Below, one piece after another: positions 1 through 17,727 of a stretch of 21,176 nucleotides of DNA. The notes beneath the pieces were generated by a model, which did no database searches, had not been told where the DNA came from, and saw nothing but the letters and a program-made list of their open reading frames with translations. This DNA comes from a virus: IMG/VR virus record IMGVR_UViG_3300029893_000215, positions 1 through 21,176 of that record, one strand, 5' to 3'. A program made the position numbers and the translations under genes. Position 1 is the first letter of the stretch. Every line of letters starts with the position of its first letter.

Positions 1-615
1 CAATGGAAGGAAGTCGTGGCCGCCGTGAAGGAGAAGAACCTCGTCGCCTTCATCGACATGGCCTACCAGGGCTTCGCCGACGGCATCAAGCAGGACGCCG
101 TCGCCCTCGACCTGTTCGCCGCTTCCGGCCTGCAGTTCTTCGTCTCCAGCTCCTTCTCGAAGTCCTTCTCGCTCTACGGCGAACGCGTCGGCGCGCTGAC
201 CATCGTCACCTCGAGCAAGGACGAATCGGCGCGCGTGCTCTCACAGGTCAAGCGCGTGATCCGCACCAACTACTCGAATCCGCCCACCCATGGCGGCGCC
301 GTCGTCGCCGCCTGCCTCGCCAGCCCCGAGCTGCGCCAAATGTGGGAAGACGAACTGGCCGGCATGCGCGACCGCATCCGCGCCATGCGCACCAGCCTGG
401 TCGAGAAGCTCGCCGCCAACGGTGCGCCCGACTTCGGCTTCATCAATGTCCAGCGCGGCATGTTTTCGTACACGGGCCTGACGACAGCCCAGGTGGAGAA
501 AATGCGCGCCGACTACGGCATCTACGCCGTCGGCACCGGCCGCATCTGCGTCGCCGCGCTCAACACGAAGAACATCGACTACGTCGCCAAGGCCATCGCC
601 GCCGTGATCAAGTAA
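1..615 (+). CDS. Aspartate/aromatic amino acid aminotransferase, class I (C-terminal part, 5' end cut by window)
   Basis: This PLP-dependent fold-type I transaminase moves an amino group between aspartate or aromatic amino acids and 2-oxoglutarate in the cytoplasm. The reading frame is open from base 1 and ends at TAA 613-615, so about 204 C-terminal residues are visible. The motif SSSFSKSFSLYGERVG holds the PLP-binding lysine and the conserved downstream Arg-Val-Gly. RTNYSNPPTHGG and, near the C-terminus, GRICVAALN are typical of the AspC/TyrB family. The real start lies outside the window; the GTG at 16 is internal. It is the last host gene before tRNA-Val and the prophage. AspC and TyrB cannot be told apart from this fragment. 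Confidence 0.9.
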   Translation, partial: QWKEVVAAVKEKNLVAFIDMAYQGFADGIKQDAVALDLFAASGLQFFVSSSFSKSFSLYGERVGALTIVTSSKDESARVLSQVKRVIRTNYSNPPTHGGAVVAACLASPELRQMWEDELAGMRDRIRAMRTSLVEKLAANGAPDFGFINVQRGMFSYTGLTTAQVEKMRADYGIYAVGTGRICVAALNTKNIDYVAKAIAAVIK

Positions 616-618
616 GGC

Positions 619-624
619 TATAAT
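619..624 (+). promoter_or_regulatory. -10 box of the tRNA-Val promoter
   Basis: A perfect TATAAT lies four bases after the aminotransferase stop codon and 18 bases before the tRNA. The stretch after it is very GC-rich (GCGCGCCGCGC), the kind of discriminator seen in stringently controlled stable-RNA promoters. No convincing -35 hexamer is visible about 17 bases upstream, inside the end of the aminotransferase gene. Confidence 0.6.
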
Positions 625-642
625 GCGCGCCGCGCAAGTGTC

Positions 643-717
643 GGGCGGTTAGCTCAGCGGTAGAGCACTGCCTTCACACGGCAGGGGTCACTGGTTCGAT
701 CCCAGTACCGCCCACCA
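643..717 (+). tRNA. tRNA-Val, anticodon CAC
   Basis: A complete cloverleaf can be drawn by eye. The acceptor stem pairs GGGCGGT with ACCGCCC, the D arm is GCTC/GAGC, and the anticodon stem CTGCC/GGCAG encloses the loop TTCACAC. The T arm is ACTGG/CCAGT with loop TTCGATC. The discriminator base is A and CCA is encoded. The anticodon CAC reads GUG valine codons. The gene is intact, so the prophage beside it did not integrate into the tRNA; Mu-like phages transpose rather than use tRNA attachment sites. Confidence 0.97.
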
Positions 718-1253: not shown

Positions 1254-2000
1254 TTATCCGCCCCGAAGCCGCTCCGCCGAGACCCCGAAGTAATGCCTGC
1301 TAGCCTCGATCCCGACGAACCGCTTTCCCTGGGCTAGGGCCGCCACGCCAGTCGTCGCCGACCCCATGAACGGATCGAGGATTCTGGGGCCGCAGGCGGC
1401 CACAATATCCTCCATCAGGGGTAACGGTTTGCCTACCTGGTGCAGCTTGCCGCCGGCCTGCGGATTGACCCGAAATACCCCCGGCGAGTAACGCTCACCT
1501 TTAAGCGCACCTTTGCTGCCCCAGACGATGTATTCGGCCTGGCTGCGAAAGCCGCCCTTGTAGGGGCGGGCGCCGCCGGTCTTGTCCCATACCGCGATGC
1601 CGCGCCACGTTACTCCGGCGGCCTGCATGGCGTCGGTGGTAACGGGTAGTTGGCGCCAGTCGCTGAAGACGACCATCAGGCCGCCATCGGCCAGCTTTTC
1701 GAGGCACAGGCCCATCCAGAGCGCCGACCAATGCAGGTAGCTGCGCTGGTCTTTTGTGTCGCCAAGGAAGTCGGGGTATTTCGCCGCGCCGCTGTTGAGG
1801 TATTTGTCGCCGGTCGAGCGGGCGCGGTCGCCCTTGGATTGTCCGCCCGAGCTGTAGGGCGGGTCCGTCACCACGGCATCGAAGGGGCCGGCGATGCCCG
1901 GCAGGATCGCCAGACAGTCGCCTCGGTAGAGCTCGGCCCCTTCGAGCGTTACATGGTCCGGGTTGTTAAAGATCGGGGTGCTACTGCTTCTCTTGGCCAT
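1254..2000 (-). CDS. Phage DNA methyltransferase, N6-adenine/N4-cytosine type (beta order), in the mom position
   Basis: This 248-residue SAM-dependent enzyme should methylate an exocyclic amino group of adenine or cytosine, probably protecting phage DNA from restriction. The catalytic motif DPPY is at residues 46-49. The SAM-binding motif DPFMGSATTG is at 209-218, followed by FVGIEASRHYF. This IV-then-I order places it in the beta group of the N6_N4_Mtase family (PF01555). DPPY favours adenine, but N4-cytosine is not excluded. No restriction endonuclease lies beside it, so it is an orphan enzyme. The Shine-Dalgarno AAGGAA lies inside the upstream com-like gene, which overlaps it by 20 bases. 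The start codon sits in a hairpin, suggesting translational control by Com. Confidence 0.93.
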   Translation of the reverse strand: MAKRSSSTPIFNNPDHVTLEGAELYRGDCLAILPGIAGPFDAVVTDPPYSSGGQSKGDRARSTGDKYLNSGAAKYPDFLGDTKDQRSYLHWSALWMGLCLEKLADGGLMVVFSDWRQLPVTTDAMQAAGVTWRGIAVWDKTGGARPYKGGFRSQAEYIVWGSKGALKGERYSPGVFRVNPQAGGKLHQVGKPLPLMEDIVAACGPRILDPFMGSATTGVAALAQGKRFVGIEASRHYFGVSAERLRGG

Positions 2001-15151: not shown

Positions 15152-16189
15152 TCAGCCGGCGCCGGTCGAGCCCAGCGCGGTCTGCCAGAAGCCGTAGCCG
15201 CCGGCGGCGCGCGCCTCGGCGCCGAACTTGAACTTCTTGCGGTTGAACACGTCGTCGGCCTGCGGGTCGGTCTGCTGCACGAACACCGGCGCCTTGCGCT
15301 GCTGGTAGATGAATGGCTTGACGGCCTTCGTGGTATCCAGCAGGAACCAGGCGGTGTCCGAGGTCAGGCGCGCATCGCACACCACCTGCGCCGTACCCTT
15401 GTAGGGGTTGGCCTTGCCGTCGTCGAGGCGGTCGTTATTGACCAGAGCGAGCGCGACATGCTCCAGGGCCGGCGGCACCAACAGCACGTTCGGGGTGATG
15501 TTGAGCGGACGGCCCTCGTCATCCTTGAACTTGCGCATGGCCGTGCGGGCGGCGCCGTAGCTGGCGATGGCTGCGGCCTGCGTGGCGCAGGACAGCGCGA
15601 CGGTGAGCTTGTTCGATACGCTCACCCCGGCCACCTGGTGGTCGGTATCGAAGAAATACTGCCCATCGAAGCAGGGGTTGGTGAATCCGCCGTTGACCAG
15701 ATCCATCACGATCTCGTCGGGCAGCTGCGCGGCCGACTCGCCGGCCATCTGCGCCTGCGGCGCGTAAATGCCGAGCTGATCATCCTCGATGTCGTTGCGG
15801 TCGACCTCGACGGTGGCCTCCCAATCCTTGTTCTGGATGGTGTACTTGCCGGCCTCAAGGCTCTTGATGTTCTTGTCGCCGATCCACTCCCGCATCTTCG
15901 GGAACTTGGAGAGCCAGGCGTAATCGTTCTGACCCGAGACGGAAGGGATCAACATCGCGATCTTGTCCCACACCTTGGGCGCGGCGCCGAAGGCGTTGTT
16001 GAAGGTTGCCTTCAGGCTGATGAAGACGCTGTTGATGGCTTCCTTGTTCACCAGCATTCCGGCGAGCGCGATGGCCGGCAGCGCTTCGGGGTCGAGCGTT
16101 ACCGGGGGAACGGCCGCGCCGGCGGGCAGGGCCAGAAACGCCGCAACGCCGGCGGCGGCGAGAGCGACGAGTTTGAGCAGGGATTTCAT
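15152..16189 (-). CDS. T: Major capsid protein T (Mu-like gpT) with signal-peptide-like N-terminus
   Basis: Residues 45-345 match the Mu major head subunit (PF10124). MLVNKEAINSVFISLKATFN aligns with the start of Mu T. KIAMLIPSVSGQNDYAWLSK, the MREWIGDKNIKSLEAGKY stretch, the VDRNDIEDDQLGIYAP motif and a C-terminal KFKFGAEARAAGGYGFWQ follow, all HK97-type shell features. The chosen start adds 44 residues: a Lys pair, about 18 hydrophobic residues and LPAGAA, very like a Sec signal peptide. AGGAGA lies 8 bases before this ATG, whereas the ATG at 16057 (residue 45) has no such site, so the long form is favoured. Confidence 0.93.
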   Translation of the reverse strand: MKSLLKLVALAAAGVAAFLALPAGAAVPPVTLDPEALPAIALAGMLVNKEAINSVFISLKATFNNAFGAAPKVWDKIAMLIPSVSGQNDYAWLSKFPKMREWIGDKNIKSLEAGKYTIQNKDWEATVEVDRNDIEDDQLGIYAPQAQMAGESAAQLPDEIVMDLVNGGFTNPCFDGQYFFDTDHQVAGVSVSNKLTVALSCATQAAAIASYGAARTAMRKFKDDEGRPLNITPNVLLVPPALEHVALALVNNDRLDDGKANPYKGTAQVVCDARLTSDTAWFLLDTTKAVKPFIYQQRKAPVFVQQTDPQADDVFNRKKFKFGAEARAAGGYGFWQTALGSTGAG

Positions 16190-16232
16190 GGGGATGTCTC
16201 CTGGTGATTGCGGGGTTGTGCTGCGGGTCGCG

Positions 16233-16625
16233 TTACTCGACCCAGACGCCGTCGGATTCGACGCCGATCACGATGCCGGCCGCCGACTGCGTGTTGCCGC
16301 CGGCATTGGTCCCGGACACGGTCTCGTCGTCCTCGATGTAGCAGACCTTGCCGAGGCTGGCCTGCGTTACCGCGTCGGTTGCGCTGTTGGCGAACTTGAA
16401 CGCCTTCTTGCGGCGCACCAGCACGGTCTTGTCGCCGTCGGCGCCGCCGGTGTTATCCACCGCCTCCTCGGCGCGACCGAGATAGGTCAGCGTGGTGGCA
16501 GTGGCGCCGGGGGTGGCGTAGCCGGTGGCGTCGGCCGCGACGATCTTGCCGGCGCCGATGACGGCGTCGGCGGCTACCGGGACGGCGATCAGTTCGCCGT
16601 CCTTCATGGGAGTATTGCGATCCAT
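16233..16625 (-). CDS. Probable capsid decoration or head stabilising protein
   Basis: This 130-residue protein sits between protease/scaffold and capsid gene, the usual place for a gpD-like cement protein. It starts MDRNTPMKDGELIAVPVAAD, then GAGKIVAADATGYATP, a pattern of short beta strands found in DUF2190-like cement proteins. VLVRRKKAFKFANSATDAV and IEDDETVSGTNAGGNTQSAA follow, ending VIGVESDGVWVE. I cannot name a precise family. AGGAGA precedes the ATG, and a 6-bp hairpin (16225-16243) surrounds the stop codon. Confidence 0.7.
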   Translation of the reverse strand: MDRNTPMKDGELIAVPVAADAVIGAGKIVAADATGYATPGATATTLTYLGRAEEAVDNTGGADGDKTVLVRRKKAFKFANSATDAVTQASLGKVCYIEDDETVSGTNAGGNTQSAAGIVIGVESDGVWVE

Positions 16626-16650: not shown

Positions 16651-17166
16651 TCAGGCCGCCGCAACCGCTTCGGCAGCGAGCGTCTTGGCGTAGTCTTCGG
16701 GGGTGACGCCCATCGCCTTGCAGACGGCAAGCTGGGTGTCGGTGAGCGTGGTGCCGTTGCCGCCGGCCGGCTTGTCGCCGCCGGTCTGGGTAGCGCCCGG
16801 CTTGGCGATCACCGGCTGGGCATCGATGAAGCCCTTGAGCGCGGCCAGATCGCCGGCCAGCTTGCGGGCGTGCGGCTCGGTGGCGGGGGTGAGCTTGCCG
16901 GCGGCGAGGCCGTCGGCGATCACCTTGTCGACCTCGGCCTGCGCCTTCTCGGCCTTGAGGGCGGCGAGCTCGGTGGTGGCGGTGGCCAGCTCGGTGCGCA
17001 CGGCGGTGAGCGTGGCGACCTCGACGTATCTGGCGGGATCGGGCGCTTGCGCCTTGAGGGCGGCCAGCTCGGCCTGGATCGGCGCGGTTTTGGCGTTCAG
17101 CGCGGCGAGCGCCTCGGCCTCGGTAGCCGTCTCGGACAAGCCGAGCGCAGCGAGCAATGCTTTCAT
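16651..17166 (-). CDS. Z: Nested in-frame scaffolding protein (Mu Z-like)
   Basis: An internal ATG in the protease frame (MKALLAALGLSETATEAEAL) has GGAGG 9 bases upstream, better than any start of the full gene. The 171-residue product would be the helical C-terminal part alone: an Ala/Glu/Lys heptad-like stretch (AELAALKAQ, ATTELAALKAEKAQAEVDK), then a Pro/Gly linker and the small LTDTQLAVCKAMGVTPEDYA end. In Mu the scaffold Z is made from an internal start of I in the same way. Expression as a separate protein is inferred from the ribosome-binding site and precedent. Confidence 0.75.
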   Translation of the reverse strand: MKALLAALGLSETATEAEALAALNAKTAPIQAELAALKAQAPDPARYVEVATLTAVRTELATATTELAALKAEKAQAEVDKVIADGLAAGKLTPATEPHARKLAGDLAALKGFIDAQPVIAKPGATQTGGDKPAGGNGTTLTDTQLAVCKAMGVTPEDYAKTLAAEAVAAA

Positions 17167-17727
17167 AGGTTCATCCTCCATGAAGAGCGCGGAAAGAGCC
17201 GCCGCGCCGGCTAAATCGGTGAGGCCATCGAGGCCGGGATCATTCACCAAGGCAGCATGCGCAAAGCCCTGCACGGCGCCAGTGCGGCTGTCGTAAGGAA
17301 ACACGGGGCTGATGTAGCGGTATTCCTTGTCGGCGATCATCTGCGCAGCCCGCACCGTCCACTCGACATCGACGGCGTAGATGCCGTCAGCGCGCAGTTC
17401 GAGGCCGCCGATCCATCCGGCAGCCGGGGCCGGCTTGCCGTTCTCGGCGGCGTTCAGCGTCTGGTGCTCGTAGTCGATAACCGGCTGCTTTACCATCCCG
17501 GCACGCAAGGCAACAATAGAGCGCGCCCTGTCTTCGGTGAGGAGCCAGCCGTTCGGAACCTTGTCCGCCCAGAACGAACCCGCCGCCGGCAGGAAACGGC
17601 CGAGGGGGATCAGGCGGAACTCGGTGGGCGCGTTACCGCCCGCCGTCAGATCGACGGAGAGAGCGGCGACGGCGAAATGGGAAGGAAGGCGGCGCGACAT
17701 GACCGGCATGTTGCCGATGCGCCGCAC
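16651..17727 (-). CDS. I: Prohead protease I (Mu-like_Pro)
   Basis: The 358-residue product combines an N-terminal protease (PF10123, about residues 15-185) with a C-terminal Ala/Glu/Lys-rich helical scaffold part. Typical are FRLIPLGRF, VIDYEHQTL with a likely catalytic histidine, PAAGWIGGLELRADGIYAVD, ADKEYRYISPVF and HAALVNDPGLDGL. It processes the scaffold and matures the head. The GTG at 17727 is the longest start; ATGs at 17709 and 17700 are equally possible, and none has a strong Shine-Dalgarno. An internal ATG at 17166 probably produces the free scaffold. A non-coding gap with a terminator lies upstream. Confidence 0.9.
   Translation of the reverse strand: MRRIGNMPVMSRRLPSHFAVAALSVDLTAGGNAPTEFRLIPLGRFLPAAGSFWADKVPNGWLLTEDRARSIVALRAGMVKQPVIDYEHQTLNAAENGKPAPAAGWIGGLELRADGIYAVDVEWTVRAAQMIADKEYRYISPVFPYDSRTGAVQGFAHAALVNDPGLDGLTDLAGAAALSALFMEDEPMKALLAALGLSETATEAEALAALNAKTAPIQAELAALKAQAPDPARYVEVATLTAVRTELATATTELAALKAEKAQAEVDKVIADGLAAGKLTPATEPHARKLAGDLAALKGFIDAQPVIAKPGATQTGGDKPAGGNGTTLTDTQLAVCKAMGVTPEDYAKTLAAEAVAAA

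Follow-up and report, generated by a model that had tools for sequence, protein, structure and literature searches.

The Capsid Gene Lies in a Mu-Like Head Gene Cluster

The DNA analyzed here, which we refer to as the window, is a stretch of 21,176 nucleotides from the IMG/VR virus record IMGVR_UViG_3300029893_000215, and it is a fragment of a Mu-like phage genome that looks like a prophage with adjoining host DNA. Its tail genes are those of a contractile tail (sheath, baseplate J, and gp48), and the head genes, located on the minus strand, place the capsid gene among those for a protease, a small structural protein, gp36, gp37, and MuF, which is the head-gene context of gpT (Table 1). In D3112, the protease and the small structural protein are likewise encoded upstream of the capsid gene. 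At the left end of the window (1–717), a gene fragment for the C-terminal portion of a class I/II aminotransferase is found together with a tRNA-Val gene (643–717), and this is apparently host DNA adjoining the prophage end; an N6/N4 DNA methylase gene (1254–2000, minus strand) lies near the phage end, outside the structural module. In several related loci (L002, L025, L053, L079, L084, L122, and L125), the small structural (decoration) protein encoded upstream of the capsid gene is lengthened from ∼134 to ∼220–285 aa.

Table 1. Positions of the capsid gene, its upstream neighbors, and the parts of the N-terminal extension in the window.
Feature	Position	Strand	Evidence or remark
Major capsid protein gene, Mu/D3112 gpT family, 345 aa including extension	15152..16189	-	PF10124, PHROG 371, AlphaFold model
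gpT core, residues 45-345, equivalent to the entire protein of D3112, Mu, and JBD30	15152..16057	-	Sequence comparison
Hydrophobic Gly/Ala junction, residues 37-47 (LPAIALAG/MLV), Gly at core -1	16049..16081	-	Junction composition, 57 sequences
Acidic linker without K/R, residues 27-36 (VPPVTLDPEA)	16082..16111	-	Linker composition in 41 relatives
c-region, candidate signal peptidase I site P-A-G-A-A, residues 22-26 (AGA or GAA)	16112..16126	-	AxA-like
h-region, hydrophobic, residues 7-21 (LVALAAAGVAAFLAL)	16127..16171	-	Hydropathy, predicted helix
n-region, residues 1-6 (MKSLLK), net +2	16172..16189	-	Translation; charge pattern common to 41 relatives
Shine-Dalgarno AGGAG, 8 nt 5' of long ATG	16198..16202	-	Sequence
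Virion structural protein, PHROG 1731, D3112 orf34-like	16233..16625	-	43 nt upstream of long start
Prohead protease/scaffold, Mu gpI family	16651..17727	-	PF10123, 3.9e-79; candidate agent of extension removal

In its core, the window protein is a typical gpT. Family profiles matched across it, with Pfam Mu-like_gpT (PF10124) at 2.1e-97, beginning at residue 53 of the window protein, and PHROG 371 (major head protein) at 7.2e-109, beginning at residue 45. All of the best 50 phage-record matches listed also begin at residue 45, so this residue corresponds to the start in canonical relatives, as had been proposed when the locus was first read. The solved gpT capsid protein 8rkc, whose entry title identifies it as the JBD30 capsid, was matched by sequence at 4e-60. 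An AlphaFold model of the window protein built from an 81-sequence input reached a pLDDT of 86.9 (with 29 sequences, the pLDDT was 50), and the structures closest to it were the JBD30 procapsid (2e-18) and the Mu capsid (1e-15), so that both sequence and model indicate the HK97-like fold of solved gpT capsids. The window protein is thus like Mu gpT, D3112 orf35, and the JBD30 capsid protein in core sequence and fold, but these proteins are without its 44-residue presequence, MKSLLKLVALAAAGVAAFLALPAGAAVPPVTLDPEALPAIALAG, after which the core begins with MLVNKEAIN.

Sequence Evidence Supports Translation and Conservation of the Extension

The original prediction held that a strong Shine-Dalgarno (SD) sequence favors the long form of the protein, and this was confirmed, since AGGAG is found 8 nt from the long start codon, while the ATG at 16057, which encodes residue 45, has no SD. 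For comparison, we assembled 100 non-redundant D3112-type gpTs, with cores deduplicated at 95%; an extension of 36–56 residues was present in 41 and absent from 59. In each of the 41 extended genes, the SD match is 4–8 nt at the long start and 3 nt or less at the core codon, whereas all 59 unextended genes have a match of 4–7 nt at the core start, a contrast that is partly built in because starts were chosen by SD strength. Independent of this choice are the open frame, which continues through the whole extension in all extended genes, the dN/dS of the extension, which is below 1 in each pair with a computable value, and the codon for residue 45, which in 15 of the 41 extended genes reads CTG or CTC, making the long form obligatory in those 15.

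Translation from 16057 only, which had been named as the outcome that would count against a long form, is accordingly unlikely. The broader possibility that the long frame is unused, with synthesis starting at residue 45 and the extension representing a chance open frame, draws on the isolated relatives that start at residue 45 and on the ATG that the window has at this position, but it is contradicted by the missing SD, the CTG/CTC core codons, the dN/dS values, and an architecture that far exceeds that of shuffled sequences (see below), and we consider it extremely improbable. Taken from these sequence comparisons, translation and conservation of the extension are well supported.

The Extension Has the Plan of a Signal Peptide Followed by a Second Conserved Part

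Among the relatives, the sequence of the extension evolves fast while its plan is kept: a K/R-rich start, ∼15 hydrophobic residues, usually an AxA or VxA motif, an acidic linker, and a hydrophobic, Gly-rich junction with the core. In the window protein, the best 12-residue stretch of the h-region has a mean Kyte-Doolittle hydropathy of 2.43. Signal-like N-termini were scored with a home-made rule, which is not SignalP and which asks for an uncharged 12-residue window of mean hydropathy ≥1.5, a net positive n-region, and small residues at -3/-1. The window extension passes this rule for the n-, h-, and c-regions of Sec signal peptides. So do 40 of the 41 extensions under the lenient form of the rule, compared to 6.3 expected from within-extension shuffles, and a strict AxA/VxA site is present in 29 of 41, compared to 2.3 expected from the same shuffles; the site is poor or absent in a few extended members (e.g., L073, L093, and L219). 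In a control stretch of E. coli DNA, OmpA, OmpF, SsuA, Elf/Ycb fimbrial proteins, and CsgI pass the rule and cytosolic proteins fail, although some E. coli inner-membrane proteins pass its lenient form, so that signal peptides and signal anchors are not separated by it. Only 23 of ∼604 neighboring gene products of the relatives (∼4%) pass the lenient rule, and among the other head and tail gene products of the window that were tested, the portal being left out, none has a signal-like N-terminus.

The extensions of L073, L076, and L178 (MKHTRYDMFVWILLLVGVGCLRWSGLVG...) contain a hydrophobic segment with Cys at its end and no AxA. A 'sig_peptide' annotation on the gpT of a Salinibacter phage (L324 2845–3855, MF580961) was rejected as spurious, as it covers the whole gene and the N-terminus is polar.

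The shuffles, the E. coli control, and the recurrence in relatives bear out the original prediction that a Mu-type capsid protein, normal in other respects, begins with a signal-like segment. The signal-like segment itself is confined to residues 1–26, as stated there, but residues 27–44 constitute a second, separately conserved part, made up of the acidic linker and the Gly-rich junction. In the 41 relatives, the linkers after the putative cleavage site average 19.5 residues and contain 8.6% D/E, and only 6 of their 799 residues are K or R (0.75%), compared to 10.6% in the core (binomial P ∼1e-30, a value overstated because the sequences are related). An early mature part free of positive charge is also characteristic of Sec signals.

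When 56 sequences were aligned at the junction, the profile was hydrophobic from -34 to -23, had an acidic peak at -10/-9, and became hydrophobic again from -6 to +3, where no charged residue occurs in any of the 56 sequences; the second hydrophobic segment has only ∼11 residues. N and K usually follow, with K or R at +5 of the core in 38 of 56. Gly occupies position -1 in 53 of 57 sequences, about four fifths of them have Gly or Ala at -2 and -4, and Met, Leu, or Ile is found at +1. In the AlphaFold model, helices are predicted at residues 2–19 (pLDDT ∼77) and, with low confidence, at 34–45 (∼56), with coil between them, ahead of the HK97-like core.

The Extension Is Widespread and Has Been Repeatedly Gained or Lost

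Extended gpTs were found in Betaproteobacteria (Nitrosomonas communis, Nitrosomonas halophila, Nitrosovibrio, Nitrosospira, Sideroxydans, Gallionella, Herbaspirillum, and Rhodocyclaceae), and also in Mariprofundus ferrooxydans. The plan, including the Gly-rich junction, recurs in distant Mu-type gpTs (L222, L245, L248, L263, L276, L283, and L287, and, judged by eye, L223), one of which, L222, has a core 42% identical to that of the window. Of the non-redundant Mu-type extended sequences, 15 of 16 fit the plan, the exception being L279. The extension is missing from the isolated phages and contigs checked, comprising D3112, RS1, B23, Mx4, two faecal contigs, and two plasmid prophages, as well as from the gpTs of Mu and JBD30. 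Retention of the extension by betaproteobacterial relatives was thus borne out, and lack of conservation, the other outcome named as counting against the original prediction, does not hold, since many relatives (41 of 100 gpTs overall), though not all, have it; it may be present or absent even between close relatives. With cores that are 86 and 87% identical to that of the window, L026 is unextended and L027 and L032 are extended.

On the core tree, the trait requires 22 changes, at least 9 of them forced by well-supported branches, which is fewer than with shuffled labels, and the sequences indicate that the extension has been repeatedly gained or lost. Pair alignments place the difference in a coding block of ∼130 nt that is added or deleted. 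The distance from the upstream gene to the capsid start is about 10–110 nt in most loci, both extended and unextended, which also argues for a coding block that was inserted or deleted. Similarity among extensions tracks similarity among cores weakly (Mantel r 0.20, p 0.002); together with the junction common to distant gpTs, this fits an old element subject to frequent loss or to recombinational exchange better than it fits a series of separate origins.

The extensions of L073 and L076 are near-identical and their cores differ (dN 0.11), a hint of recombination at the gene start. The 5' untranslated DNA of the unextended L146 aligns with linker-coding DNA of the extended L134, as if an SD arose within a lost extension; the alignment is short and may be due to chance.

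Gene neighborhoods are essentially alike with and without the extension. A few neighbor families differ by Fisher test, uncorrected for kinship and flank length, and no gene in the relatives' neighborhoods was found to come or go tellingly with the extension. In 14 of 14 genomes searched, nine of which encode the extended form, there is one gpT gene, and a second, unextended copy was not found in any of them. If the prophages are functional, the shell must therefore be made of the extended protein, the sole gpT of its genome. Roughly half of the related phages do without the extension, so it is not essential to gpT assembly.

Possible Functions of the Extension

The extension resembles Sec signal peptides such as those of E. 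coli OmpA and OmpF in its positive n-region, h-region, AxA-like site, and non-positive mature start. It differs from them in having a second conserved hydrophobic, Gly-rich segment within ∼20 residues, and in being placed on a capsid protein whose assembly has to take place in the cytoplasm; its export is putative. A fully functional signal, by which gpT is partly or wholly exported to the periplasm for a non-shell role, would account for the ordinary Sec architecture and the export-compatible mature start. However, the single gpT gene in each of the 14 genomes must also form the shell, the other head proteins tested in the window lack a signal, and SD-preceded internal starts near the core, from which a separate cytoplasmic form might be made, occur in only 3 of 41 extended genes. 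We regard export of this kind as very unlikely. The single gene also makes the non-capsid purpose raised by the original prediction less likely, and of the three options offered there, a tether to the membrane is the best, because K and R are almost absent from the linker and from the whole stretch between the hydrophobic region and the core. This near absence is expected of a segment that is inserted into or translocated across a membrane, and not of a scaffold-binding segment or a structural arm.

A shell needs portal, scaffold, and terminase, all in the cytoplasm, and yet its subunit here has a signal-like N-terminus; a presequence attached to a capsid domain that stays cytoplasmic reconciles the two. 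We therefore propose, tentatively and at somewhat less than even odds, that the extension serves as a membrane-targeting presequence, by which newly synthesized capsid protein is docked at the inner membrane, and that it is cut off or withdrawn before maturation. The positive, hydrophobic first ∼21 residues would direct newly made gpT to the inner membrane via a Sec/YidC route and, once inserted, keep the N-terminus on the inner side. The K/R-free acidic linker would then lie on, or cross to, the periplasmic face, so that the AxA-like site could be cleaved by signal peptidase I, and the short Gly-rich hydrophobic junction segment would reside in or on the membrane, leaving the capsid domain in the cytoplasm. 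Capsid protein would thereby be concentrated at the membrane for prohead assembly and be set free once the presequence had been cleaved off or withdrawn, yielding a shell protein close to canonical gpT starting at residue 45. In this proposal, insertion into the membrane, topology, cleavage, and any advantage for assembly are points that we infer. Several points argue against it: an AxA signal normally leads to full export, which would part the shell protein from DNA and ATP; the second hydrophobic segment, at ∼11 residues, is short for crossing a membrane; and many related phages do without the extension, no gene was found to accompany it tellingly, and a few members have a poor AxA site or none.

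The main rival to membrane docking, or else a second step following it, is cleavage by the gpI protease at the junction. It is possible that the extension is a delta-type segment of this sort, as the original prediction also suggested: a cytoplasmic presequence with no membrane role that is enclosed in the prohead and cut by gpI between Gly and Met/Leu, after spacing the subunits, binding scaffold, or slowing folding. The junction, with its Gly at -1 and Met/Leu/Ile at +1, is the best conserved part of the extension, a cut there would restore the canonical N-terminus, a gpI-family protease is encoded two genes upstream of gpT, and protease/gpT fusion proteins exist (NF045540/NF045541 domain matches), making N-terminal additions removed by a protease plausible. 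But the positive n-region, the AxA sites, and the K/R-poor linkers are left unexplained, the junction motif was not found in 93 protease/scaffold proteins, and unextended close relatives retain the same protease family, so that we judge a purely cytoplasmic delta-like role unlikely. The delta segments of HK97 and T4, which the prohead protease removes, are likewise N-terminal on the shell protein, and the gpT extension may resemble them in being removed before maturation; it differs in its signal-like plan and in being freely lost between close relatives.

The extension could also be retained in the virion, where it would form a longer hydrophobic arm at the N-terminus of the shell protein, linking capsomers to one another or lining the head interior. 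In JBD30, the N-terminal arms of gpT reach neighboring capsomers and hook at pseudo-twofold axes, taking differing positions in hexamers, pentamers, and beside the portal (PMC11445458), and in the extended proteins the hydrophobic pattern runs across the junction into the core. A retained arm should nevertheless conserve its sequence and not just charge and hydropathy, whereas dN of the extension is well above that of the core in most pairs, and such an arm would have no need for a signal-like n-region or an AxA site. This arrangement seems to us decidedly unlikely.

Relation to Known Assembly Pathways

Membrane docking of gpT would have two partial parallels. M13 procoat consists of a signal, a short acidic loop, a second hydrophobic segment, and a positive cytoplasmic part, a plan like that of the gpT extension in an unrelated protein and virion. 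The second segment of procoat is a full transmembrane segment, in contrast to the ∼11 residues in the gpT extension, which are followed by an HK97-like domain of 300 residues. In the second parallel, T4 proheads are initiated at the inner membrane, a step in which YidC is implicated, and detach once maturation cleavage has taken place (PMC9958956). T4 prohead initiation (gp20, gp40, and YidC) is thus bound to the inner membrane with release after maturation, as proposed here, but in T4 the portal makes the membrane contact, while in our proposal the shell protein does. Extending the proposal to the whole set of sequences, so that many scattered Mu-like tailed phages would build heads from capsid protein that a cleavable hairpin at its own N-terminus, resembling that of procoat, delivers to the inner membrane, is a more doubtful step.

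The gpT core belongs to a known family, and the presequence on a tailed-phage gpT is new. Searches of the open-access literature turned up no description of a tailed-phage capsid protein with a signal peptide, and the absence of the extension from the isolated phages checked may be the reason why the trait has gone unremarked. The export-like segment on the shell protein suggests that shell protein may reach the cell membrane in a manner not described before. The shells of tailed phages are generally assumed to form from soluble protein in the cytoplasm. An export-type presequence that recurs on the shell protein, and that has been lost and kept many times among close relatives, would imply one of two things: some HK97-fold capsids are assembled at the membrane, or the plan of a signal peptide has been put to a second use in capsid maturation. 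Natural pairs of close relatives that differ in the extension, such as L027 and L026, make the question directly testable, and if the proposal is true, it would define a route by which an HK97-fold capsid is assembled while docked at the membrane.
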